A stretch of 33,906 nucleotides of DNA. Source: Planctomycetia bacterium (lineage in GTDB: Bacteria > Planctomycetota > Planctomycetia > Pirellulales > JALHLM01). Positions 5,748-19,783 of this stretch are shown piece by piece. The DNA lies in NCBI GenBank assembly GCA_034440135.1, contig JAWXBP010000514.1, positions 1 through 33,906 of the forward strand. Reading direction: 5' to 3'. The notes below the pieces were generated by a model. The model had not been told where the DNA came from. It made no database searches and saw only the letters and a program-made list of their open reading frames with translations. Both the position numbers and the translations under genes were made by a program. The first letter of the stretch is position 1; each line of letters starts with the position of its first letter.

Positions 5748-5903
5748 GGCGAAGACGGAGTTCCCAAGCGGATCGATTCCTTCGCCATGGCGATCCAGAT
5801 GGGGTGTACCGTTTACGACCTGGAGGAGGCCGAGCTTTGCTACGCGCCGCCCTTCGGCAGCGTGAAGGATCCGGTCAACTTCGCCGGCATGCTGCACGCT
5901 GTC
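5748..5903 (+). pseudogene. Remnant: FAD/NAD disulfide reductase fragment
   Basis: Plus-strand translation gives GEDGVPKRIDSFAMAIQMG followed by TVYDLEEAELCYAPPFGS and KDPVNFAGM. This is the highly conserved dimerisation-domain segment of CoA-disulfide reductase/NADH oxidase-type flavoproteins, which carry KRIDVxAxAI and YAPxFGSAKDPVN. Neither the FAD- and NAD-binding domains nor the rhodanese domain often found after it is present. It abuts the peptidase remnant on its left. On its right it overlaps the 3' end of the NO reductase gene, which terminates inside it. A clear gene fragment and evidence of rearrangement. Confidence 0.7.
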
Positions 5904-8112
5904 GATAAGAAAACCCGAACTTCAGTCCCGCAACAAAGATCACGAGCGCGACGGCCCCCAGGAAGAAGATCGTGTCGCCTGGAACGCGCATCCAGCGGAG
6001 CGTCTGCATCGTCGGCGTCTGCATGAATTCACTGCTGCGGGCGAACCAATAGCCATGCTCCACGGAAGCCCAGGTTTGCATCAATCCCACGGGCAGCAAG
6101 CTAATGACGCACATCGCCAGCAAACCCAGATTGAGCGACCAGAATGCGAAGCTGAGCAAGCCGTCTTTCCATTCGCGGCCGGGAAGCAGCGCTCGCAGGC
6201 AAACAAGCATCAATCCGATGCCAAGCATGCCGTAGACGCCGAACAGCGCGGCATGGCCATGCACGGGCGTCGTGTTGAGTCCCTGCATGTAGTACAAGGC
6301 GATCGGCGGATTGATCATGAAACCGAAGAGGCCGGCCCCGATCATGTTCCAGAAGGCCACGGCCACGAAGAAGTAGATGGGCCATTTGTAACCTTTGACC
6401 CACGGTCGAATGCCCGACCGCCGCAGATCGTCCATCGCGTCAAAGCCGACCAACGTCAGCGGGACGACTTCCAGAGCGCTGAAGACGGAACCCCAGGCCA
6501 GAGCCACGGTCGGCGTTCCCGAGAAATAAAGGTGGTGGCAGGTACCAATGATGCCGCCTGATAGAAAAATGGTCGCCGACAGGAGCGCCGACGCTGCGGC
6601 CACACCCGGTCGGACCAGGCCCAAACGCATGAAGAAGAAGGCAATGACCGTCGTGGCGAAGACTTCAAAGAAGCCTTCAACCCAAAGATGCACGACCCAC
6701 CAGCGCCAGTATTCGACCATGGTCAGGTGGGTATGCTGTCCCCACGTCAGCCCCGCGCCATAGAACAGCGCGATGGCCGCCGAAGCGACGAGCAACAACG
6801 TAACCAGCTGCTTTTCATTTCCTTGGGTCTTCATGGCGGGCCAGAGCACGCGCACCATCAACGTCAGCCACAGCAGCAGGCCAATCATCAGGGCGATCTG
6901 CCAGAATCTTCCCAGATCAACGTATTCGTATCCCTGATGGCCGAAATAAAACGACACGGCGTCTGTCAGTTGGTTGTGTACGCTCAGGAGCTCGCCGGTC
7001 AAAGAACCAACGACCACGACCAACAGGGCCCCAAACAACACATTCACGCCCAGCCGTTGGCCGGCTGGTTCGACGTTGCTGACCAGCGGACCAATGAAGA
7101 GACCCGCGCCAAGCCACGCGGTAGCGATCCAGAACAAGCCAATTTGCACGTGCCAGGTGCGCGCCACGCTGTAGGGCAGCCACTTGGAGAGCGGGATGCC
7201 GTAGAAGCCGTCCCCCTCGACGCCATAGTGGGCAACCACCACGCCGAGCAGCATCTGAGTGAGGATGAGCGCCGCGACCACCCAGAAATACTTGATCGTC
7301 GCCTTTTGCGACGGCGTCGCCCGCCAGGCGCTGAGAGGATCGGACTCGGGCATGGCCTGCTCAGGCTCCGATTCGCGGCGGGCAGCGTACCACCAGACCA
7401 TTCCAGAAATGCCCGCGAGCAACATGATGATACTCACGCCGGTCCAGACCACGGCTTCGCCGGTGGGGCGATTGCCGACGAGCGGTTCGTGCGGCCAGTT
7501 CTGCGTGTAGGTGACGTTGTCATTCGGCCTGTCGGTGACTGCGGCCCAGGCCGTCCAAAAGAAAAAAGCGGAGAGTCGTTTCAATCGACTTGGATCGCTC
7601 ACGGCGCCTGGCGGAATTGCGTAGTCTTTGTTGCCTTGCGAAAACACTTCCGAGTAGTGCGCGAGATTCTCTTGAAACGCCTCCGCGCGCAGGGCGTCGA
7701 TCACGATCGTCCCTTGCTCGGAGTCGTAGGTGTTCTTACGGAGCATCCCTGCGAGCCGGCCCTGCAACTGCGACTGCTGTTCGACGTTCAGTTCGGCGTA
7801 ATCGCGGCCGAACTCGGACTGCCCCCAACGGTTGAGAATGAAGACGGCCTCACGATGCAGCCAATCGGCCGTCCAATCCGGTGCGACGTAACTGCCATGT
7901 CCCCAGATGGAACCAACCTCCATCCCGCCGAGGGATTGCCACACATTCTGACCGGCGGCGATCTCGCCGGCATCCACGACGACGACGCCGTCGGCGGTCA
8001 CGACGCGATCCGGAATCGGCGGCATCTCTTGATAAATGCGCGTGCCAATCCAACTCAACACGGAGAAAGAAACAATCATCACCGCCGCAAACAGGTACCA
8101 CAGCCGCTTCAC
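5875..8112 (-). CDS. norZ: Quinol-type nitric oxide reductase (qNOR)
   Basis: Single-subunit NO reductase of the haem-copper oxidase superfamily, reducing 2 NO to N2O with quinol at the membrane. I place the start at GTG 8110-8112 because AAGGGA lies six bases upstream; a frame extending to 8208 lacks this. The protein has 745 aa, an N-terminal TM helix, and the periplasmic region typical of qNOR (GQNVWQSLGGMEVGSIWGHGSYVAPDW, split here as residues 54-80), then about 13 TM helices. Expected ligands are present: His321 (TWHVQ) and His620 for haem b, His618 for haem b3, His475, His526 and His527 for FeB, with Glu479 in VVHLWVEG. The last ~7 residues (RAACRRS) read into a flavoprotein remnant, so the native C-terminus was probably replaced. 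Divergent from the radical SAM gene. Confidence 0.93.
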   Translation of the reverse strand: MKRLWYLFAAVMIVSFSVLSWIGTRIYQEMPPIPDRVVTADGVVVVDAGEIAAGQNVWQSLGGMEVGSIWGHGSYVAPDWTADWLHREAVFILNRWGQSEFGRDYAELNVEQQSQLQGRLAGMLRKNTYDSEQGTIVIDALRAEAFQENLAHYSEVFSQGNKDYAIPPGAVSDPSRLKRLSAFFFWTAWAAVTDRPNDNVTYTQNWPHEPLVGNRPTGEAVVWTGVSIIMLLAGISGMVWWYAARRESEPEQAMPESDPLSAWRATPSQKATIKYFWVVAALILTQMLLGVVVAHYGVEGDGFYGIPLSKWLPYSVARTWHVQIGLFWIATAWLGAGLFIGPLVSNVEPAGQRLGVNVLFGALLVVVVGSLTGELLSVHNQLTDAVSFYFGHQGYEYVDLGRFWQIALMIGLLLWLTLMVRVLWPAMKTQGNEKQLVTLLLVASAAIALFYGAGLTWGQHTHLTMVEYWRWWVVHLWVEGFFEVFATTVIAFFFMRLGLVRPGVAAASALLSATIFLSGGIIGTCHHLYFSGTPTVALAWGSVFSALEVVPLTLVGFDAMDDLRRSGIRPWVKGYKWPIYFFVAVAFWNMIGAGLFGFMINPPIALYYMQGLNTTPVHGHAALFGVYGMLGIGLMLVCLRALLPGREWKDGLLSFAFWSLNLGLLAMCVISLLPVGLMQTWASVEHGYWFARSSEFMQTPTMQTLRWMRVPGDTIFFLGAVALVIFVAGLKFGFSYRQRAACRRS

Positions 8113-8289
8113 GAGAAGTCCCTTCAGGTTAAATGCTTTGAAAAACGTATTGACGCGGCACGTCTTGAATTCGTTCCACCGGAACCGTGGGCCGGCGAAT
8201 ACTTGCATGGCGAACGCGTGCCGTGAATATCGCCAAACTTTTACTTGGTGAAGACATGCCCATGACGCTTCGCTCTGCGCGCAACGATA

Positions 8290-8356: not shown

Positions 8357-10108
8357 ATGACCACCGTCTGGAGTGCTCTGAATGTGAACAACTCGCCGAT
8401 GCCACGTCGACGACAGAATCGCAACTGCACGATTCTGCTCTCCAGCGTGTTCGGTCCCTTCGCTCAAGACGACGACTTTGGCAGCCGCACACTCAATCCG
8501 ATGGAGCTTTACCACAACCAGGTGACCCGCACGCAGGGCGCGTTCTCGCTGCGAATGTTTCATCGCAGTTGGGGACTCATGATGATTCAGTCCAACATCA
8601 CTGCGCCCTGCGCCGTGCTCGACTTTCCTTCCCTCGAACGCTTTGCCGAGGAAGTGTCGACCGGTAGGTACGACGTGATCGGCATTACGAGCATTGTCTC
8701 GAACTGGATGAAGGTGCGCAAGATGTGCGAAGTAGTGCGTGCCAAGGCGCCTCGCGCCACGATCGTCGTGGGCGGCCATGTGGCGAATATCCCGGACCTC
8801 GCGGAACGCATCGACGCCGATCACATCGTGCGGGGCGAAGGAGTGCGTTGGTTTCGCGAGTTTCTCGGCGAGAACGTCGAACGACCGCTGTGGCATCCGC
8901 TGATCAAGTCCGGCCTCGGCGCCCGCTGCATGGGCCTCGCGGTACGTGACCGTCCCGGCGACGTGGCGGCGACGGTGATTCCCTCGGTGGGCTGCCCACT
9001 GGGCTGCAACTTCTGCTCGACGTCGGCCATGTTCGGCGGCAAAGGACGATTCGTGGACTTTTATTCTTCCGGGGACGAGTTGTTCGAGATCATGCGGCAG
9101 CTGGCCCAAGCGATGCAAGTTCGATCGTTCTTCATCATGGACGAGAACTTTCTGCTGCACCGCAAGCGTGCGATGCGATTGTTGGAGCTGATGGAAGAGC
9201 ACGACAAGTCCTGGTCGCTTTACGTCTTCAGCTCGGCGAACGTGCTGTCGTCGTACCGCCGCGAGGACCTGGTGCGGCTGGGCGTCTCCTGGGTGTGGAT
9301 GGGACTGGAAGGGGAGGCCAGCCAATACGCCAAGTTGCGCGGAATCGATACACGCGCCTTGGTGAAGGATTTGCAGTCGCACGGCATCCGCGTGCTCGGT
9401 TCGTCGATTATCGGTCTGGAGGAGCATACGCTCGAAAACATCGACCAGGCGATCGACTTCGCCGTTGCGCACGACACGGACTTTCATCAGTTCATGCTCT
9501 ACACGCCCATCCCCGGCACGCCCCTGCACTCGACGCTTAAAGCGCAAGGCCGTATCAAGTCGGATCAAGAAATTCATCCGGGAGACGTGCATGGCCAAGC
9601 GTTGTTCAACTATCGACACCCGCATCTTCCCGACGGCTCTGAAGCCGATCTGGTGTTGCGGGCATTCACGCGCGACTTCGAGGTCAACGGTCCGAGCGTG
9701 GCTCGAATCGCTCGGACCACGCTGCAAGGATGGAATCGCTATTGTGATCATGTGGATTCGAGGGTGCGCGATCGGTATCTCTGGGAGGGTCGGGAGCTGG
9801 CAACCACCTACGCGGCCGCGGCGGGGGCCTCGCGGGCGCACTTGCGGGAAAACAAAACCGTGGAGCATCGTTTGGACGCATTGCTGAGCGACTTGCACGC
9901 GGCGTTTGGCTGGAAGTCAAGGCTGGCGTCATCGATCGGCGGCCGATTCGTGTTGCGCGCCTTGCGGCGCGAAGAATCGCGCCTTGCGCGGGGGTGGACG
10001 ATGGAACCTCCTACGTATTTCGAAGTGAACGACGCGCTGGCGAATCAAATGGCCTCGCTTGGCGAGCGGTGCGTGACCGTCTCGCAGTGCGTTGGCGCCA
10101 CCCCCTGA
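8357..10108 (+). CDS. B12-binding-domain radical SAM protein
   Basis: Protein of 583 aa, start ATG 8357 with AGGAG eight bases upstream. Residues ~25-190 form a Rossmann-like cobalamin-binding-type domain (VIGITSIVSNW, ATIVVGGHVANIPD, ADHIVRGEG), but the DxHxxG base-off cobalamin motif is not visible. The radical SAM cluster motif is C213-x3-C217-x2-C220 in SVGCPLGCNFCSTS. It is followed by FIMDENFLL, WMGLEGE and the HQFMLYTPIPGTPLH segment typical of this class. The C-terminal ~130 residues are a helical extension. Such enzymes perform radical methylations or rearrangements, often in lipid or natural-product pathways; no substrate can be assigned. Divergent from norZ and convergent with the MOSC gene (one base between stop codons). 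Confidence 0.88.
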   Translation: MTTVWSALNVNNSPMPRRRQNRNCTILLSSVFGPFAQDDDFGSRTLNPMELYHNQVTRTQGAFSLRMFHRSWGLMMIQSNITAPCAVLDFPSLERFAEEVSTGRYDVIGITSIVSNWMKVRKMCEVVRAKAPRATIVVGGHVANIPDLAERIDADHIVRGEGVRWFREFLGENVERPLWHPLIKSGLGARCMGLAVRDRPGDVAATVIPSVGCPLGCNFCSTSAMFGGKGRFVDFYSSGDELFEIMRQLAQAMQVRSFFIMDENFLLHRKRAMRLLELMEEHDKSWSLYVFSSANVLSSYRREDLVRLGVSWVWMGLEGEASQYAKLRGIDTRALVKDLQSHGIRVLGSSIIGLEEHTLENIDQAIDFAVAHDTDFHQFMLYTPIPGTPLHSTLKAQGRIKSDQEIHPGDVHGQALFNYRHPHLPDGSEADLVLRAFTRDFEVNGPSVARIARTTLQGWNRYCDHVDSRVRDRYLWEGRELATTYAAAAGASRAHLRENKTVEHRLDALLSDLHAAFGWKSRLASSIGGRFVLRALRREESRLARGWTMEPPTYFEVNDALANQMASLGERCVTVSQCVGATP

Positions 10109-10109
10109 G

Positions 10110-10652
10110 CTAAGCCACGATCGGCACGACGCGAGAACCGGGCACCAACAACCCGCCGCGCACGACCGACGCCATGTAGCCGCAGCGGCCGACGATCACG
10201 TCTTTGAGACGCGGATCGATCGAATCCAACACGTAGCAAGGTTTGCGAGGTTCTTCCAGTCGCAACAGAATCTGCCCTAGTTGCAAAAGCGTTCCTGGCG
10301 AAAGACGCTGCACGTTGAGCCCCAAGACTGTGAGGTTCTCGCCGATCGCGCCCGGAGCGACAGTGAATCCTTCACATTGCAGTTGTTCGATAACCTCCAT
10401 GTCCAATAGGCTGACCGCGCGGTCCGGTCGAATGTGCTTCGTGTGATTGCGGCCGTCGCCGACGAAACCATTGACCGTCAACCAGGCGTCCGGCTGGGGC
10501 AACTTCGGAATGCCGCCGGGCGAGACGCAGATCGCCAGGAGTAAGCCCCTTTCTCTGTCGCAATGGCTTGACACGTTCGTGACGATGGTCGCTTCCGACG
10601 GCGGCGATGGCGCGTCGAGATCAAAAGCCGCTGGGGATGCCGCATAGTTCAT
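10110..10652 (-). CDS. MOSC domain protein
   Basis: Protein of 180 aa. The open frame extends much further upstream over the chaperone gene, but the ATG at 10650-10652 (MNYAASPAAFD) is preferred: it follows GAAGAG and starts 32 bases after the chaperone stop. It has the MOSC pattern: GDGRNHTKHIRPDRAVSLLD, GAIGENLTVLGL, LSPGTLLQLG, and the conserved Cys in EEPRKPCYVLD. The family is linked to molybdenum cofactor sulfuration, transfer or reduction of N-hydroxylated compounds. As the last gene of an operon for a Mo-bisMGD enzyme, a role in cofactor handling is plausible but inferred. Confidence 0.85.
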   Translation of the reverse strand: MNYAASPAAFDLDAPSPPSEATIVTNVSSHCDRERGLLLAICVSPGGIPKLPQPDAWLTVNGFVGDGRNHTKHIRPDRAVSLLDMEVIEQLQCEGFTVAPGAIGENLTVLGLNVQRLSPGTLLQLGQILLRLEEPRKPCYVLDSIDPRLKDVIVGRCGYMASVVRGGLLVPGSRVVPIVA

Positions 10653-10684
10653 TCCGCACTCTTCTTTCGGTTCAACGCGAAGAC

Positions 10685-11545
10685 TTAACCTTGAGCCAAC
10701 GCACAGCCCTCGCAGGAGCTGGCTTGCTCGTGCGGCTCCGGCTCCACCGAGCGCGCCTCGAGCGGCATCTTCGGCGCGACAATGCCCAGACGCTGGCGCT
10801 CGATCGGCAGCAGCGCCGCGAGTACGGCGCCGACCGCCGCGTAGAACCCGCCGCCTGACTTGCGGCGCACCGCCACCGTGAACGACGGCGCCCACCAACT
10901 GAGATGATCGCGCAGGAAATGGCGACGAGCCTCCTGGACGATGGCCGGCAGTTCGCCGTCTTGCGAACCGGCCTGGCACGACCGCGCCAGACGCTTCTTC
11001 ATCAACAGAAACGCAGCGAATTCCAGCTCCAGGGCGATGTGATCGACGCGTTCATGCCTGGCCGGCGAGACGTTCAGTCCAAACGCGCGGTAAAAGCCAG
11101 CGATATCCGCCATTTGCTGCGAACGGAAGAAGACCTCTTCGTTCGGATGGTACTCCGTTTCGTAGGGCGAACATTCGCGCGTGCCTGCCAGACCGAACAC
11201 GCGCCCATGCTCGATCACCGCGAGATCTTCTTCGACGGGTAGTTCGCTGAGCAAAGGCCGAAGATCCAAGTCTTCGAGCGGCAGTTCCCCAAAGCCGAGC
11301 GGGATATCGCATTGATCGAATTCCTGACTCAGCAGATATTGCGAGGCCCGCGCCGTCTCCTGGCTCGCTTTCTCGCCCAGCACGTGCCACTCCGCGGACG
11401 TCGGGTTGCTAAGCGCCGCGGCCAGAAAACGATACAGCGTTTCGCAAGCCAGGTCGCGCGCGAACTCGACGCTCGCTTCCTCGGCGATCACATGCGTTTG
11501 CACCGGCGATTCGCAGCCAGGCGATGGTTCAAATGGAGTTGGCAT
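10685..11545 (-). CDS. TorD/NarJ-type molybdoenzyme chaperone
   Basis: Protein of 286 aa starting at ATG 11543-11545 with AAGGA six bases upstream; it overlaps the end of the beta-subunit gene by 17 bases. All-helical TorD/DmsD family features are present: early LACETLYRFLAAALSNP, the conserved ECSPYETEYHP segment, then QMADIAGFYRAFGL and RVDHIALELEFAAFLL. The end has a Cys pair (SSCEGCALAQG) that is not part of the family core. These cytoplasmic chaperones bind the molybdoenzyme catalytic subunit, help insert bis-MGD cofactor and hold back Tat export until folding is complete. Its partner is almost certainly the alpha subunit at 13344-16805. Confidence 0.9.
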   Translation of the reverse strand: MPTPFEPSPGCESPVQTHVIAEEASVEFARDLACETLYRFLAAALSNPTSAEWHVLGEKASQETARASQYLLSQEFDQCDIPLGFGELPLEDLDLRPLLSELPVEEDLAVIEHGRVFGLAGTRECSPYETEYHPNEEVFFRSQQMADIAGFYRAFGLNVSPARHERVDHIALELEFAAFLLMKKRLARSCQAGSQDGELPAIVQEARRHFLRDHLSWWAPSFTVAVRRKSGGGFYAAVGAVLAALLPIERQRLGIVAPKMPLEARSVEPEPHEQASSCEGCALAQG

Positions 11546-12821
11546 GTTTTTCCTTCGGGCGTTCGAAGACCGGCTCGTCGATGGTGACGCGAACCACTTC
11601 CTTGCCGAACTTGTTGAAACCGATCACCGTGTCGTTGAACAGTTCCTGGACGCGTTCCTCGCCGGAAGGGAGCCGCACCGGAATCTCCGCAACCTTGGGG
11701 CCTTTTTCGATCTTGAACTTGAACAGAATCTGCCGCTGAGCGCGGAACAATTGCAGCACCGCCAGCAACTCGCGGTCCGGGCAGGAGTATTGTTCGATCG
11801 CTTGGTCGACGCCCGGACCGAACATCTGATACAAGTAGCCGCGCGGCACCCAGCGCGGCGGAATGTAGTACCCGTTGGGCTCCGTCCCGAATTGCGGGTA
11901 AAGCGGCAGGGCGACTTGGCGCTCGCGAATCAGGAAGTTGAGCGGATTCTCCGGGTTGTCGGTCCAGCGGCCGTCCTCGCCGACTTCCACGAGTCCCTGC
12001 AAACGAATCTTGCCAACGCAGACCGACATGCAGCGCGTTTCGATCGGCGCTCCGTCTGGGCAAAGCTCGGGATCGCTCCCTTCGATGCGCGGATAACAGC
12101 CGACGCATTTCTCGCTGGTGTGCGTGTTGCCGCGATACATCACCTTCTTGTAAGGGCAACCCTCGACGCACTTGCGGTAGCCGCGGCAACGCGTCTGGTC
12201 AATCAACACGATGCCGTCTTCCGGACGTTTGTAAATGGCCTGGCGCGGACATGCTCCCAGGCAACCAGGGTACGTGCAGTGGTTGCAGATCCGCGCCAGG
12301 TAAAAGAACCACACTCGATGTTCCGGCAATTGCGTCGAGCCATTGAACTTGCCGGACTCCCACTTGCCTCCCGTGGCCGAGTCCTCATACATGTTTGGCG
12401 TGCGCCATTCCGCTTCGGAAGGCAAGTATCCCATCACCGCCTGCGGCCCCTCGGGGCCGACGCGCTTGGCCGCGGCTTCAAAAATGGTTTGCCCTTGGAA
12501 TTCGCCGTAGGGCTTCGCGTCGGCGTCCTTTTCGCTGGCGTTCCAGGTTTGACCGCCGGGGTTCACCGATTCCAGCATTCCCAGGAGCTTAGAATCCCAG
12601 TTGCGCGGATAGCCCCCGTACGGCTTCGTCTCGACGTTGTTCCACCACATGTATTCCTGGCCGCGCGAAAACGTCCAAGTGCTCTTACAGGCCATCGTGC
12701 AGGTCTGGCAAGCGATGCAGCGGTTCGTGTTGAACACGAACGCGAACTGCCACTTCGGATGCCGCTCCTCGTACGGGTAGCTCATCTCGCGGCCGAGTTG
12801 CCAGTTGTAGACCTGCGGCAT
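11529..12821 (-). CDS. NXR/nitrate reductase-type beta subunit, four Fe-S clusters
   Basis: Electron-transfer subunit of 430 aa, start ATG 12819-12821 with AAAGGA seven bases upstream. The N-terminus VYNWQLGREMSYPYEERHPK is strongly reminiscent of NxrB from Nitrospira and anammox bacteria. Cluster ligands: C35/C38/C41/C45 (RCIACQTCTMAC), C179/C182/C187/C191 (CNHCTYPGCLGAC), C212/C218/C222, and C239/C242/C264/C268. In CRGYRKCVEGC a Tyr occupies the position where NarH has Trp instead of Cys, predicting one [3Fe-4S] and three [4Fe-4S] clusters. No signal peptide: it would be co-exported with the Tat-bearing alpha subunit. The NXR-like character separates it from classic cytoplasmic NarH. It could also serve in periplasmic nitrate, chlorate or selenate reductases. 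Confidence 0.92.
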   Translation of the reverse strand: MPQVYNWQLGREMSYPYEERHPKWQFAFVFNTNRCIACQTCTMACKSTWTFSRGQEYMWWNNVETKPYGGYPRNWDSKLLGMLESVNPGGQTWNASEKDADAKPYGEFQGQTIFEAAAKRVGPEGPQAVMGYLPSEAEWRTPNMYEDSATGGKWESGKFNGSTQLPEHRVWFFYLARICNHCTYPGCLGACPRQAIYKRPEDGIVLIDQTRCRGYRKCVEGCPYKKVMYRGNTHTSEKCVGCYPRIEGSDPELCPDGAPIETRCMSVCVGKIRLQGLVEVGEDGRWTDNPENPLNFLIRERQVALPLYPQFGTEPNGYYIPPRWVPRGYLYQMFGPGVDQAIEQYSCPDRELLAVLQLFRAQRQILFKFKIEKGPKVAEIPVRLPSGEERVQELFNDTVIGFNKFGKEVVRVTIDEPVFERPKEKHANSI

Positions 12822-12976: not shown

Positions 12977-13342
12977 TTACTGCCGGTTTGGCAACGTGAT
13001 TTGAAAGACTTCCGGTTCATGCTCTTCCTCGTCCTCGTCCGGCTCGGCGATCACCTCGCGAAACTTCAGCACGCCGGTCCGCGCCAAGAGGGATTGAATC
13101 CGCCGACGCACTTCATCTTCGCCAAAGTGCTCGCCAAGCGCGACGAGCACCGGGTAGCCAGGGTTCTGAAACAGCGATTCCAATTGACTCGCGTTCCAGC
13201 CCATCCAGACGAACTCCTCCAACATGCACTCCAGCATCACCTGCGGATCGCCCGAGACGGGCTCCGCCATCAACTCGAAGGGATCCTCGACGTCGGCCAG
13301 TCGATCGAGCGGGTGAACCTTCGGCGCCCAGCGATCGTCCAT
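12977..13342 (-). CDS. Small acidic protein of unknown function (operon member)
   Basis: Protein of 121 aa. ATG 13340-13342 begins one base after the alpha-subunit stop, with GAGGG seven bases upstream, favouring it over an earlier start at 13363. I do not recognise a family. A predicted mixed/helical middle (LECMLEEFVWMGWNASQLESLFQNP, residues ~38-60; GEHFGEDEVRRRIQSLL, ~72-90) is followed by an acidic tail (EPDEDEEEHEPE) and a short end FQITLPNRQ. There is no signal peptide, no TM helix, and only one Cys (in LECML). Its placement between the two structural genes suggests a chaperone, assembly factor or extra subunit of the complex. This is inference. Confidence 0.8.
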   Translation of the reverse strand: MDDRWAPKVHPLDRLADVEDPFELMAEPVSGDPQVMLECMLEEFVWMGWNASQLESLFQNPGYPVLVALGEHFGEDEVRRRIQSLLARTGVLKFREVIAEPDEDEEEHEPEVFQITLPNRQ

Positions 13343-13343
13343 G

Positions 13344-16300
13344 TCAGCCCTCGATGCGGACATAGCCGCCGCTTAAGTACATCAGGTTCTCCGCCGAGTC
13401 GCTGTGCGGCCCGTACGCGATCGTGCCCGGCTCCCAGAGTCCCACACCGTCCGGCCCGCCGGACTCGGCCTTGATGATCCGCACGAGTGTTTCTTTCGGC
13501 ACCGTATTCACTGCGTGATTGTCGGCCTCGCCGCCAAACATGAAGCCCATCTTCAGCTTGGCCTTGTGGAACAGCGTGTCGGTCTGGTGCATCGGCATCA
13601 GCCAATTCCGCGTGCACGATTGATGCGCTCCGTAACGCAGATTGGCCTGATAGCCGGTGTCGGCCGATCGCGCCCGACCATCGGGCCGCGTTTCGTGCGC
13701 CAGCACGGTCTTCTCCGTGGAAATGTAAGGAGAGTGTTTGGTCATCACCACGCCGCGCGGATAGCTCGTGTTCAACGTCACGCGCACCATCAGCCGGGCA
13801 ACTTTTGCCCGCGCCGGATCATCCTGCCACCCGCGGAACGGCCGGTCGGCCGGATTTGAATCCAAATAGACGTAGTCTCCGGCGTTGAGACCCATTTCCG
13901 CGGCGTCGTCTGGGTTGACATGCAACTGTTGATCGCCGAAGAACGGCAATCGCTTATCGCGGCGATAGGGATCGCCGTAGTTCGAATCCCAGATCATGTG
14001 CCAATCGACATTGGACCACTGCGAGTGGACGCGATGCCGCGTCTTGGGCGTGAGCAAATAGAAGCGGAAGCCCTGCTTCCAGAGCGGATTCTCCGTCGTT
14101 TTCACCTCATCCCACGGCAACTTGATATTGCGAATCGTGCGTTCGTCCCAGTGCATCGCGTCGTCCGCGAGTCCGAAATCTTCCGGGCGAATCAGCGGGT
14201 TCGTGCTGACGATCACGTTCGGGAGGTACGGCGTCGCCTCCGGTCCTTCGCGATGCACAATAAAGTTTTCGCCGTGCTCGATCGCCTCGGGAATGTCGCA
14301 ATACGCGTTCAAGCGGCCGGTGTCCGTCCAGAACGGCATGTTGTCCTGCATGTTTTCGTAGAACGGAATCCGCGGATACGTGCGGAACAACATCAGCGCC
14401 GCGCCGGCCTCGCCGAACTTGCCGGCGAGAATGTCATCCACACGGTAGCCTCGCGTCGTGCTCGAACCATCGAACAACCGTTGAATGTAGGTCTTCGATC
14501 CGTTCGCCTTGTCGTCCAGAATGAACTTCCAATAGTTGGCGAAGCGAGGATCGCCGGTCTCCTTCGTCATGGCCTCGGCCGCTTCGGCCAGAATATGCAC
14601 GTCGTCGCGCGTATCGTACGGCGGCGAGATGCCCCCCTTCCAGATATGCACGTAGGGGTTCGAGCACGAAGCCGTGACCTCGTACGTCTGGTACTCCATC
14701 CAGGTGTTCGCCGGATACACCAGGTCCGCGTATTCACAGGAGCTCGTCATCTCCACGTCTTGTGCGACGATGCAGTCGATCTTGGGATTGACCACGAATA
14801 GCATGTCGTAGGCATGCTTCGCGTTGTTGAACAGGTTGACGTTCGCGAACCACAGGAACTTGGTCGGCGTGGGCATGTGCGTCTGCCCGGTGAAGCAACG
14901 CCGGCCGTATTTCGGCGTGTCAACAATTAGCGGCCGTTCACCGTGGTTCCAATAGGCCGGTTCCTCATCCTTGGTCGTCTTGTTGACGACGATGTCCTTG
15001 CCATCGGTCGTGGGGTCGAGGTTCGGATGGAACGGATCCTCAGCGATCCAACCCAAGAACCCCGGTCCGCTCTCCGGCGTGCTCTGAAACAGCGCCGCCT
15101 TGTAGTTGCCGGCCCAGGTAAAGCAGCCCGCGCCAGGACGTCCGAGCTGGCCGGTAAGCATGATCGGCAGGTACTGCGCGCGGTTGGTGAGCGTGGCGTG
15201 GAACCAATGATTGATTCCTTCGCCAACGTGAATCGCCACGGCGTGTCCGGCTTGCGTGGTGTCCCAGATGTCTTTCGCCATGCGGGCGATCAATGATTTG
15301 TCGGAACCCGTGATCTGGGAAACCGTGTCCAGATCGTAGTCCTTGAGATGAACCTGGCAGGCGTCCCACAAGGTGATCACACGCACGGCGCTGCCGTCGG
15401 CGAGCTTGATTTCGCCAGAGAACGAAAGCGCCGGCCGTACGCCATCCGCCTCCATGCGCGGTCCGAGTTGGTCGCGCGTCAGCGCTCGCACAGCCTGCGT
15501 CCCCTCGTCATACACGACGAAGTCGCCGACCTTGGCGTATTGTTCGTCCGTCAAGTGCTGCGTCTGGTACGACGGCCCGTCCTTCTTCAGCCCCGGCTGA
15601 TAATCCGGGAAGACGTCGGCCGCCCGCAGTCGTTGCAGCGTGTCCTCGCGGACGAGCAACGGGAAATCGGTGTACGAGCGGACAAACTTTTCGTCGTACC
15701 AATGGTTGTCGATCATGTGCCGCGTGACACCCAGAAACAACGCAGTGTCCGTGCAACCCGGCCGGACCTGAATCCAGTAGTCGGCCTTGGTGGCTGGCGG
15801 CGAGTACTCGGGCGTGATCACCACAATCCGTCCGCCGCGCTCCATGATCTCAATGAACCAGTGCGAGTCCGGCATTTTGTTTTCGACCAGGTTCTTACCG
15901 CACTGGATATGCAGCTTGGCGTGCCGCATGTCGTTGAAGTCGCAGTCGGCGGCTTGCAGGCCATGCACGAACGGATGCCCCGGCGCCTGGTCGCCGTGCC
16001 AGGTGTAGTTGGACCAAAGCCGCCCGCCCAGCGCTTCCTTGGGTTCCACGCCGCGCACGAGGTGATCGGCGATCGCCAGCATGTTCGACCAGCGATACAG
16101 ACCGTACTTGCCGATCACGCCAAGCAGTCCCATGCCGCCGCGCAGCTTGCAGGTGCGCGTGCCGGCGCCGTGACAGGCCTCGATCATCTCCGGCTCGTAA
16201 CCGTCGGCTTTCAGACGCCCGGCGCCCGCCTCGCCCGCATACGTCTTGGCGATCGCCATGATGGCTTTGGCGTGATAGCGGTAAATCTCGTCCCAGCCAA

Positions 16301-16805
16301 CCTTGACGAAGGTGTCCGTCCCGCGCGAGTTGAATTGGTACTTGTCCCGCAGTGTGGGGTCGTCGGAAAGCGAAGGGAATCCATCATCCGCCCATTGCTT
16401 CCAACCGCGACGCACGAGCGGGCCGCGCAGGCGGTACGGACCGTAAACGCGGCGCTGCTGCGTGAAGCCCTTGGAGCAGCCGCGCGGATTCCAATGCACC
16501 GTGTCCTTGTTGCCATAAAGGTCGCCGCAATTGCCGCCTTCGTACGCCTGCTCGGAGCGCAGCACGATGCCGTTGCGCAGGTAAGCCTTCATGCGGCAGT
16601 TGTGCGTGTCGTTCGGAGCGCAGACCCAGGTGAACGATTCGTCCACGCGATATTGATCGCGGTAGAGTCGCTCCCAATCGCGATCCGGGTAAACGCCCAG
16701 CGGGTTCTCAACGCTGACCGGCTGGAAAGCCCAGAGTTGCGATTGCAGCAAGCCGCAACTGCCCATGGCCGCCATCGCCGTTTGGAGGAATTCACGCCGT
16801 TTCAT
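13344..16805 (-). CDS. NXR/pNAR-type molybdopterin alpha subunit, Tat-exported
   Basis: Catalytic subunit of 1153 aa of the type II DMSO reductase family. A Tat signal (KRREFLQ, then AMAAMGSCGLLQS) shows that the complex works outside the cytoplasm. The FS0 region WVCAPNDTHNC (60-70) plus RGCSKG (C110) follows the NXR pattern rather than NarG's HxxxCxxxC: by alignment the ligands would be C62, Asp66, C70 and C110. The molybdenum ligand is probably Asp272 in YTWHGDQAPGHP. WNPRGCSKGFTQQRRVYGPY and the later GPxGR-type cofactor segments also fit NxrA. It would interconvert nitrate and nitrite using bis-MGD. The direction, and whether chlorate or other oxyanions are used, cannot be read from sequence. 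76 bases separate it from the cytochrome gene. Confidence 0.93.
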   Translation of the reverse strand: MKRREFLQTAMAAMGSCGLLQSQLWAFQPVSVENPLGVYPDRDWERLYRDQYRVDESFTWVCAPNDTHNCRMKAYLRNGIVLRSEQAYEGGNCGDLYGNKDTVHWNPRGCSKGFTQQRRVYGPYRLRGPLVRRGWKQWADDGFPSLSDDPTLRDKYQFNSRGTDTFVKVGWDEIYRYHAKAIMAIAKTYAGEAGAGRLKADGYEPEMIEACHGAGTRTCKLRGGMGLLGVIGKYGLYRWSNMLAIADHLVRGVEPKEALGGRLWSNYTWHGDQAPGHPFVHGLQAADCDFNDMRHAKLHIQCGKNLVENKMPDSHWFIEIMERGGRIVVITPEYSPPATKADYWIQVRPGCTDTALFLGVTRHMIDNHWYDEKFVRSYTDFPLLVREDTLQRLRAADVFPDYQPGLKKDGPSYQTQHLTDEQYAKVGDFVVYDEGTQAVRALTRDQLGPRMEADGVRPALSFSGEIKLADGSAVRVITLWDACQVHLKDYDLDTVSQITGSDKSLIARMAKDIWDTTQAGHAVAIHVGEGINHWFHATLTNRAQYLPIMLTGQLGRPGAGCFTWAGNYKAALFQSTPESGPGFLGWIAEDPFHPNLDPTTDGKDIVVNKTTKDEEPAYWNHGERPLIVDTPKYGRRCFTGQTHMPTPTKFLWFANVNLFNNAKHAYDMLFVVNPKIDCIVAQDVEMTSSCEYADLVYPANTWMEYQTYEVTASCSNPYVHIWKGGISPPYDTRDDVHILAEAAEAMTKETGDPRFANYWKFILDDKANGSKTYIQRLFDGSSTTRGYRVDDILAGKFGEAGAALMLFRTYPRIPFYENMQDNMPFWTDTGRLNAYCDIPEAIEHGENFIVHREGPEATPYLPNVIVSTNPLIRPEDFGLADDAMHWDERTIRNIKLPWDEVKTTENPLWKQGFRFYLLTPKTRHRVHSQWSNVDWHMIWDSNYGDPYRRDKRLPFFGDQQLHVNPDDAAEMGLNAGDYVYLDSNPADRPFRGWQDDPARAKVARLMVRVTLNTSYPRGVVMTKHSPYISTEKTVLAHETRPDGRARSADTGYQANLRYGAHQSCTRNWLMPMHQTDTLFHKAKLKMGFMFGGEADNHAVNTVPKETLVRIIKAESGGPDGVGLWEPGTIAYGPHSDSAENLMYLSGGYVRIEG

Positions 16806-16881: not shown

Positions 16882-18567
16882 TCACTCCAAATCCAGGTCG
16901 TTCCACATGGAGATCAACTTCTGCCCTGCGCGATCACGCGCCTCGCCGTCCCAGATGGCGAAGGCGCCCGAATAGTGTTGTCCTGATCGCAAGGTGAGTC
17001 CTTCACTGGCGCTCACCTGTAGCGGTCGCATAAAGACCACGCTCCATTGACCGTCCGACCAGACGGCCTGAGCGGTCACGACTTGCGAGGCCTTGGGACG
17101 AAATGTCAGGCTCCCATGTCCGCCGGCCGTCAGGTTGCTGGCGCTATCTTCACGCGTCGCCAGTGGATTCCCACCCGCGCGGGCCGTGATAAAGTCCGGC
17201 AGCGGCTTGCCGCCCGCCAGGCGACGATATTCTTCGGTGTCAAATGGATATTCGTCCGAGAGCTGATCTTCGGCGCCGGTCGCTTCGCGGCCCGCGCGCC
17301 ACTGCCATAGATCGAGCGCCGTAGTTGCCGCGCCCATGCCGAGAAACGGTTCCGCGTCGCCCTCGTACAATTCAATCGCCGCCATGTCCTCGAACTCATC
17401 GGGTCGCACCGCGGCGGCATTTTGTGTGGCGTCGCGCCACGTCAATCGCACCGCGAGATTCTTGCCGTCATGCCGGGCCTGGACCTGAACGCGAAAATCG
17501 CCGTCCCGCCACCACAGCGGCATGAGTTGCACCGTCGCGGCGTCGTCTTGCGACCATGATTCGGCCACCGGATCGTCAGTAACCTTGCCAACGCGCTTCG
17601 CTTGCAAGCTCACGCGCCGCATCACCGCGGCTTCGCGTTGCGATTCCGTGGAAAGCGACCGCAAGAAGTGGGACAGATCGACGATCTGGTCCTGCGTCAG
17701 CGTCTGTGAACTCGGCATGGGAGTGCCGGGCATTCCATAGAAAATGCGGCGGTAGAGCGATGGGACGTCGTGCCCGCCCTTGTAAATGCCTTGTGTCAAA
17801 TCCCGAGGTCGCGTCGGCAGGCCGGTTTCGTCAAACATCGCCTGCACGCCGTCTCCCTTACCTTCGTTTCCGTGGCAGGAGTGACAGCTTTGTTTGACAT
17901 AAATCTCTTTGCCGCGAGCGATCGCCGTTTCGTCGACGGCGCCCATTTCGGGCAACTCCTCGGCCGGCTCGGGGGTTGTCATCGCAGCGACGGTATCGGC
18001 GATATCCTGCTGAACTTCTTCGCCGGCCAATTCTTCTTCAGAAAGCCCTTCGTCGTCCCTTAAGGACTTCACGTAGCGCTCCTTGGCGCCCTCGCGAAAC
18101 ATCCTGAGCACTTCTTCGACAAGCAGCGCACGTTGCTCCTTGGGCAAGTGCGCCCACGATGGCATGGAACTGCCGGGCATGCCGCGGACGAGCACCGCTT
18201 CGATGTCTTCCGCAACTGGAACGCTGTTGGCGCTGCTGGCCAACTTGAATCGCCCGCCGCGAAAGTCGCGAGGTTTGGGAAACAAGAACAAGGCCGCGCG
18301 GCCCAGCCCATCCCCCTGATCGCCGTGGCAAGCGCCGCAGTGTTGGAGGAAGAGTTGGGCGCCGGACATCGACACCGTCGCAACGTCGGCGCTGGGCACG
18401 GCCGGGTCGGCCGGTTTGCGGGAAGCCGAAGCATCCGAGTGCGGCGCCTCAGGTGCTGGCTGGGACGGTGCGGCCTCGCACCCCAGTGCCGCCGCCAGCA
18501 GCCCAACTAGTCCAAATCGCCTTAACGAGGGCGAAAACACCGAGGCGTGTTCGGAGTTGGCTGCCAT
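16882..18567 (-). CDS. Diheme cytochrome c / haem b gamma-subunit fusion lipoprotein
   Basis: Protein of 561 aa. ATG 18565-18567 is chosen because it puts a signal peptide at the N-terminus (hydrophobic FGLVGLLAAALGC); Cys30 makes a weak lipobox. A GTG further upstream (18642) would bury that signal. Two c-type haem sites follow: CGACH (77-81) with GMPGSSMPSWAHL as likely Met-ligand region, and CHSCH (228-232) with GMPGTPMPSSQTL. Residues ~340-561 resemble the ethylbenzene-dehydrogenase gamma/NxrC haem b domain (LMPLWWRDGDFRVQVQARHD, then LAVRLTWRDAT, DLWQWRAG, FAIWDGEARDRAGQK). It probably carries electrons between the beta subunit and the membrane or periplasmic carriers. First gene of the operon. 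Confidence 0.88.
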   Translation of the reverse strand: MAANSEHASVFSPSLRRFGLVGLLAAALGCEAAPSQPAPEAPHSDASASRKPADPAVPSADVATVSMSGAQLFLQHCGACHGDQGDGLGRAALFLFPKPRDFRGGRFKLASSANSVPVAEDIEAVLVRGMPGSSMPSWAHLPKEQRALLVEEVLRMFREGAKERYVKSLRDDEGLSEEELAGEEVQQDIADTVAAMTTPEPAEELPEMGAVDETAIARGKEIYVKQSCHSCHGNEGKGDGVQAMFDETGLPTRPRDLTQGIYKGGHDVPSLYRRIFYGMPGTPMPSSQTLTQDQIVDLSHFLRSLSTESQREAAVMRRVSLQAKRVGKVTDDPVAESWSQDDAATVQLMPLWWRDGDFRVQVQARHDGKNLAVRLTWRDATQNAAAVRPDEFEDMAAIELYEGDAEPFLGMGAATTALDLWQWRAGREATGAEDQLSDEYPFDTEEYRRLAGGKPLPDFITARAGGNPLATREDSASNLTAGGHGSLTFRPKASQVVTAQAVWSDGQWSVVFMRPLQVSASEGLTLRSGQHYSGAFAIWDGEARDRAGQKLISMWNDLDLE

Positions 18568-18694
18568 GGCTCCGTTTCCACTTATTGCGGTTGTGGAATC
18601 AACTCGTTGCCGACGTAACGCACGCTCCGTGCCATTTTTCACAAGCAGGCGGGCTACATCGCGAACAGCAACGCGATATTCACTATAAAGACAT

Positions 18695-19045: not shown

Positions 19046-19783
19046 TCAGTCGAGTCCCGCATCGAGCGGCAGCGATGATTCCAGCGCTGCAGCGCGAGGA
19101 AACAGAATGTTGTTTTCCTTGTGAATGTGGAGATGCAGATCGGCTTCCAGTGCTTCCAGTCCGTGCCACAGCGCCAACCAGGTCGAGCAAGCGTCGGCCG
19201 GAGGGCGATAGCCATTGGTCAAGTCACGCATCTTTGCCAGCGCATTCCCTGCCGAGCGATGCTCGTCTTCCATCACGTGGATTGGTTGCATCACCGTGCC
19301 GCAGTGAAACCGCGGAGCGGGTAAGCCGCTCGCGTCGGCTTCCTCAAGTCGGACGACATGAGGAAATAGCACCAGTTCCTCTTTCAGCATGTGGTTGGCC
19401 AATTCCTCCCACATCGCGATGTACGTACGCTGCAATTCATGCAGAAACGCATGAGAGTCGCCATGCCGCGCGACAACCTTGTCGAGCATCGCTCCGAGCC
19501 GTGGCAGCTCGGCCCGCAGATACGTGTGATGACGATCCACGATGTCAGCGACCAGCGTTGCCAACGGGACCTGCGTCCAGTCCGGCTGATCGGTTGTGCG
19601 CTCCTCCTTGATGTCGAGCGCCCGTTCAACATCCGCCACGGATAAGTTGCGTTGACGGCAGGCGTCGGCGAGCGATCGCTGCCCCCCACAGCAGTAGTCG
19701 ATGGCGAATTGTTCCAACACTCGGGCACGTTCCGGTCGCTCCGCGACCAAGTCCCCGACCCGGCGTTCCGCGAGAAGTGTCAT
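19046..19783 (-). CDS. ric: RIC di-iron Fe-S cluster repair protein
   Basis: Protein of 245 aa of the YtfE/ScdA/NorA family, which restores iron-sulfur clusters damaged by NO or oxidants. Start ATG 19781-19783 with AAAGGA eight bases upstream. The N-terminal ScdA/DUF542 domain (residues 1-60) has VLEQFAIDYCCGGQRSLADAC. The hemerythrin-like four-helix domain carries the di-iron ligands: DRHHTYL (~83-89), ELANHMLKEELVLFPH, PIHVMEDEHR and HIHKENNILFPRA. Cytoplasmic. Position beside an NO reductase and a nitrate/nitrite enzyme fits a role in nitrosative stress. It is transcribed toward the operon but ~480 bases before it, so probably as a separate unit. Confidence 0.93.
   Translation of the reverse strand: MTLLAERRVGDLVAERPERARVLEQFAIDYCCGGQRSLADACRQRNLSVADVERALDIKEERTTDQPDWTQVPLATLVADIVDRHHTYLRAELPRLGAMLDKVVARHGDSHAFLHELQRTYIAMWEELANHMLKEELVLFPHVVRLEEADASGLPAPRFHCGTVMQPIHVMEDEHRSAGNALAKMRDLTNGYRPPADACSTWLALWHGLEALEADLHLHIHKENNILFPRAAALESSLPLDAGLD

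Follow-up and report, generated by a model that had tools for sequence, protein, structure and literature searches.

The window, a stretch of 33,906 nucleotides from a member of the Pirellulales, carries on its reverse strand an operon of the NXR (nitrate/nitrite oxidoreductase) type. The gene of a putative fused gamma subunit stands first in the operon, directly before nxrA, and the operon is flanked by a NorB-type nitric oxide reductase and a RIC protein. The features discussed here are as follows.

5875..8208 (-), NorB-type nitric oxide reductase (PF22085 and PF00115)
10110..10979 (-), MOSC-domain-like protein (weak NCBIfam match and sequence)
10685..11545 (-), TorD/NarJ-type chaperone (PF02613, TIGR03482)
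11529..12821 (-), NxrB-like iron-sulphur subunit (TIGR03478 at 255 bits, below its cut-off, and Fer4 domains)
12977..13363 (-), small conserved protein of 128 aa between nxrA and nxrB
13344..16805 (-), NxrA-like catalytic subunit with Tat motif RREFLQ (phmmer, full-length match to 7b04_B)
16882..18567 (-), putative fused gamma subunit, two cytochrome c domains and an EB_dh haem b domain
16885..17547 (-), EB_dh/NXR-C-like haem b domain, residues 366-586 (Pfam PF09459; phmmer to 7b04_C; Foldseek to 7b04_C and 2ivf_C)
16918..16920 (-), predicted haem b axial ligand K575, equivalent to Lys305 of Kuenenia NXR-C
17335..17337 (-), predicted haem b axial ligand M436, equivalent to Met155 of Kuenenia NXR-C
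17716-17718 (-), predicted haem c2 distal Met, M309
17872..17886 (-), haem c2 site CHSCH (C253, C256, H257)
17959..18102 (-), acidic linker between the haem c domains, residues 181-228, net charge -9
18163-18165 (-), predicted haem c1 distal Met, M160
18325..18339 (-), haem c1 site CGACH (C102, C105, H106)
18478..18480 (-), lipobox cysteine C55 after a hydrophobic signal (LRRFGLVGLLAAALG, then C; LLAAALGC/E by sequence)
19046..19783 (-), RIC/YtfE di-iron protein for FeS cluster repair (TIGR03652, above cut-off)

The MOSC-like protein is possibly related to the molybdenum cofactor, and the true start of its reading frame is probably internal. The NorB-type reductase, judged by its fused N-terminal domain, is of the quinol-dependent kind. 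Opposite the operon, on the forward strand at 8357-10108, lies a gene for a B12-binding radical SAM protein, whose link to nitrate metabolism is not obvious.

Read from the ATG at 18567, the fused protein has 561 aa, and this start suits the signal peptide better than a GTG at 18642, which gives an open reading frame of 586 codons (18642-16882, reverse strand) whose numbering we follow for residues. Its cysteines are only five, namely C55, the two in C102-H106 and the two in C253-H257, and none of 20,000 shuffled versions of the protein contained two CxxCH motifs. Pfam recognizes Cytochrom_C twice (60 bits), above the cut-off. The distance from one CxxCH to the other is 151 residues here and in many Pirellulales, and 116-119 in several other lineages. 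A lipobox-like cysteine was found by a simple rule in 24 of 59 fusions, the remainder having a hydrophobic signal or transmembrane stretch at the N-terminus. Pfam, AlphaFold2 with Foldseek, and an alignment of 54 family members concur with the first-pass annotation in describing a single exported, lipoprotein-like polypeptide with two CxxCH sites and a C-terminal haem b domain.

The identity of this C-terminal domain is supported by both sequence and predicted structure. Pfam EB_dh (PF09459) matches residues 384-575 with 93.7 bits against a cut-off of 33.3, and the best NCBIfam match is TIGR03477, the haem b subunit of type II DMSO reductases, at 104 bits and under its cut-off of 169.85. The AlphaFold2 model, built from the alignment of 54 family members, reached a pLDDT of 86.4 and a pTM of 0.83, and the top distinct proteins in a Foldseek comparison with the PDB were 7b04_C (E 5.6e-18), 6h5l_B (E 9.8e-17) and 2ivf_C (TM 0.79), the same three that a sequence search of solved structures returned. 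The proposed EBDH-gamma/NXR-C fold is therefore borne out by the resemblance of the model to 7b04_C and 2ivf_C, and a search for axial Met/Lys ligands in this domain identified M436 and K575, each kept in 53 of 53 fusions. Kuenenia NXR-C binds its haem b via Met155 and Lys305 (PMC8387239). All six axial ligands, together with the haem-attachment cysteines, are invariant across the 54-fusion alignment. The haem assignments are thus supported at the level of sequence, since M436 and K575 align with the Kuenenia ligands and both the haem c sites and their distal methionines are invariant. Elsewhere in the planctomycetes, EB_dh proteins with Lys/His or other residues in place of Met/Lys were observed (L032, L033, L036 and L006-L010); nxrA is not adjacent to the genes of the first three, and such proteins likely have a different function.

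EB_dh domains occur throughout the type II molybdoenzymes, and forms with Lys/His ligands exist in other planctomycete families, so one may ask whether the fused protein belongs to another dehydrogenase of the type II DMSO reductase family, for example of the hydrocarbon or sulphide type. The catalytic subunit next door argues strongly against this: it scores 1550 bits to Kuenenia NXR-A versus about 150 to the next best solved enzymes, and its molybdenum-ligand and FS0 motifs are identical, with N65 (substrate Asn), D66 (FS0 Asp) and D272 (Mo ligand) matching Kuenenia NXR. We give such an assignment hardly any credence. The protein instead shows the marks of the gamma family, with an EB_dh match over the curated cut-off, Met/Lys ligands, and genes for alpha and beta subunits and a TorD-type chaperone alongside. 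It is the single PF09459 protein of the window genome, and a search of the assembly for NarI (PF02665) gave no match; the fusion is therefore the only candidate gamma subunit, although a missed gene is possible because the assembly consists of 534 contigs and is 96% complete. In our view the fused protein most likely serves as gamma subunit in a periplasmic nitrate/nitrite oxidoreductase of the NXR type.

The fused protein shares with NXR-C of Kuenenia stuttgartiensis (Kustd1704, 7b04_C) the EB_dh fold, the Met/Lys ligands and a closely related NxrAB partner; the Kuenenia protein, however, has no haem c domains and is soluble, residing in the anammoxosomal tubules. EbdC, the gamma subunit of EBDH (2ivf_C), resembles the C-terminal domain in fold and in its Met/Lys haem b (PMC8387239), but carries haem b only and serves another catalytic subunit and substrate. 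NarGHI differs in having the NarI membrane subunit, for which the window genome has no match. Thermogutta terrifontis, of the same order, is a nitrate reducer with a described "NarGHI" (PMC5673643) whose alpha subunit falls in the NXR clade (PMC10732223), while its EB_dh subunit (L054, a probable assignment) lacks haem c.

Our survey of public genomes with NxrA yielded 80 nxrA loci. A fusion of haem c (one or two CxxCH) with EB_dh stands immediately upstream of nxrA in 36 of these, from many Planctomycetota as well as Omnitrophota, Verrucomicrobiota, Marinimicrobia and Sumerlaeota; at least six further loci have a fusion nearby, among them three with it downstream of nxrA, two of these from Acidobacteria and Methylomirabilota. 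Chloroflexi loci carry, downstream of nxrA, an EB_dh protein without haem c. In the order to which the window belongs, nxrA adjoins a fusion with two haem c sites in all 19 further loci (L034, L035, L037-L053). Non-anammox Planctomycetota, from which NxrA-like genes have been reported (PMC10732223), thus usually have the fused form in their nxr loci. The first-pass annotation had set the fusion against well-studied relatives, where these roles are often divided among several proteins; it had proposed a survey of domain architecture in NxrC/NxrT homologues and had named routine fusions in the family as a refutation. In that survey fusions turned out to be routine, and proteins called alt_NxrC, with haem c and haem b domains, have been published from Nitrospina in 2013 (PMC3578206) and Nitrospira in 2019 (PMC6606698). 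Novelty is therefore ruled out by the loci and the literature together, and the fused architecture is a common, already described design.

The EB_dh tree requires three changes between fused and unfused states, or two if L129 is frameshifted, against 27.5 in shuffles. L129 had appeared to be a haem-c-free exception, and was set aside since its haem c1 domain sits in another frame, so that a frameshift is probable. With so few changes on the tree, the fusion is old and stably inherited; the topology fits either one old fusion with later loss or loss and regain. The NxrA of the window falls outside the Brocadiales group in a quick tree and groups with loci that include Phycisphaerae, and the EB_dh and diheme parts of the fused protein group in their trees with other Pirellulales. 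Judging from these trees, NxrA and the fused gamma seem to differ in history, which suggests that one of the two, the catalytic subunit or the electron relay, was exchanged and that the other remained with the host.

The published alt_NxrC proteins raise the question of whether the fused protein is a gamma subunit in the full sense, or an "alternative" one as understood in Nitrospira and Nitrospina, that is, a docking or shuttle cytochrome on the membrane side, distinct from the core NXR and drawing electrons from it. The architecture is indeed shared: alt_NxrC of Nitrospina gracilis combines one to three haem c sites with a haem b-binding domain (PMC3578206), and alt_NxrC_2 of Nitrospira moscoviensis has a signal peptide, a transmembrane helix and a diheme part (PMC6606698). 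As in our protein, haem c sites and an EB_dh-type haem b domain are joined in one exported protein, and the alt_NxrC proteins have also been proposed as the electron exit of NXR. Because transcription of alt_nxrC_2 stays below that of the core NXR, the authors of the Nitrospira study called its direct interaction with NXR questionable (PMC6606698). Three Brocadia-type loci in our survey likewise hold both forms, a haem-b-only NXR-C of about 330 aa and a fusion of about 545 aa. In contrast to these nitrite oxidisers and anammox bacteria, in which the fusion stands beside a haem-b-only NxrC, the window genome has the fusion alone. It is the sole EB_dh protein there and in 18 other fusion-bearing genomes of the order. 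The arrangement also differs, as the gamma genes of Nitrospira lie away from nxrAB whereas the gene here heads the operon directly before nxrA, and the Nitrospira alt_NxrC has a C-terminal transmembrane helix where the window protein has an N-terminal lipobox. Given that it is the sole EB_dh protein and that its gene heads the operon, we regard the role of an "alternative" gamma as unlikely. In the open-licence PMC literature we found no paper that describes the fusion as the only gamma of these groups.

As the sole gamma subunit, the fused protein would place its C-terminal EB_dh domain against NxrB, holding the Met/Lys haem b beside the last FeS cluster, while the two His/Met haem c domains would carry the chain further out and the complex would be tethered to a membrane by its N-terminal lipid anchor. 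Electrons could then pass from Mo through FS0-FS4 to haem b, to haem c and on to a soluble or oxidase-bound high-potential carrier, or in reverse. Candidate partners encoded in the genome are an aa3-type CtaD and CcoN-like oxidase subunits. A three-haem wire that dispenses with NarI had been proposed for this protein at the outset, and the fold, the Met/Lys ligands, the NXR-type neighbour and the absence of a NarI match in the genome all speak for it; the wire itself, meaning assembly with NxrAB, the order of and distances between the haems and the electron partner, is what we infer from them. With an NXR-type catalytic gene adjacent and no NarI in the genome, a built-in three-haem relay is the natural reading. 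In the Kuenenia structure haem b is the last carrier of the chain, and the acceptor beyond it is an open point (PMC8387239), and in Nitrospira the contact of a diheme alt_NxrC with the core NXR is disputed (PMC6606698). Genomes with the fusion as their only gamma gene offer a natural test system for the electron exit of NXR, in which the electron recipient is most likely served through the two haem c domains. The main value of the locus lies in this clean system with a fused gamma alone, the architecture itself being routine and described.

The diheme half has a wider distribution of its own, a profile of it finding relatives in 181 of 294 genomes of the phylum. Its nearest solved relative is Kustc0457 (6h5l_B), to which the entire half aligns (119 bits; TM-score 0.82 by target length); a kinship with Kustd1711, a diheme protein encoded in the nxr cluster of Kuenenia, had been considered and was dropped when the search of solved structures gave Kustc0457 instead. 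Kustc0457 differs in being a separate gene without an EB_dh domain, paired with the octahaem Kustc0458, whereas the neighbour of the fused gene is nxrA and not an octahaem gene. The pairing of Kustc0457 lends itself to a reading of the haem c part as a plug specific to an octahaem nitrite reductase of the HAO-like type, by which nitrite reduction would draw directly on the electrons of nitrite oxidation, as has been suggested for anammox bacteria. Among 40 diheme loci that we fetched, mostly chosen as non-fusions, a diheme of this type precedes an octahaem gene in seven, all from Brocadiaceae (L199, L200, L204, L208, L210, L211, L212), and these dihemes group near the fused (alt_NxrC) dihemes of Brocadia with support of 85/91, or 97/92 in a wider set. 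On the other hand, a CcoN-like COX1 gene lies next to the diheme, or one gene from it, in 19 of the 40. The same holds in the window genome, where two other diheme copies sit one gene away from a CcoN-like gene (C151) and from CtaD (C183). The octahaem reading is weakened by this more frequent association with CcoN-like oxidases. Moreover, an AU test does not reject a separate, single clade of all EB_dh dihemes (p 0.068). The genome does hold, on contig C112 (L151, L152), a 576-aa reading frame with eight CxxCH and a distant HDH/HAO likeness (67 bits to HDH), but no diheme of the Kustc0457 type was found on that contig. A dedicated octahaem plug therefore seems to us very unlikely.

The diheme module suggests, rather, a general high-potential adaptor, and the trees hint at an origin of the Kustc0457-type partner of the anammox nitrite reductase in an NXR gamma protein. 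In a broader and more tentative picture, which we hold to be possible and somewhat short of probable, the three-haem fusion would be the only true NXR-type gamma across a broad non-anammox set. The diheme would then be an exchangeable adaptor whose family supplies electrons to haem-copper oxidases as well and, among Brocadiaceae, to the HAO-like nitrite reductase, and Kustc0457 may derive from NXR gamma.

Kuenenia NXR works in both directions (PMC8387239), and the enzyme studied here is probably reversible as well. We lean slightly toward nitrate reduction, given the flanking genes for the quinol-dependent NO reductase and the RIC protein and the failure to find a genuine RuBisCO in the genome. 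Nitrate reduction by a planctomycete whose alpha subunit lies in the NXR clade is known from Thermogutta (PMC5673643, PMC10732223). Carbon fixation was considered as a clue to direction and dropped, the RuBisCO match in the genome being closest to an OiaX-type decarboxylase; no NirK scored above its cut-off in the genome.

The 128-aa protein encoded between nxrA and nxrB matches no family in Pfam or NCBIfam. Over 50 of the 80 nxrA loci have a homologue, mostly just downstream of nxrA, and AlphaFold2 predicts a compact four-helix core (pLDDT 81). It may act as an assembly factor or be a small subunit of NXR.
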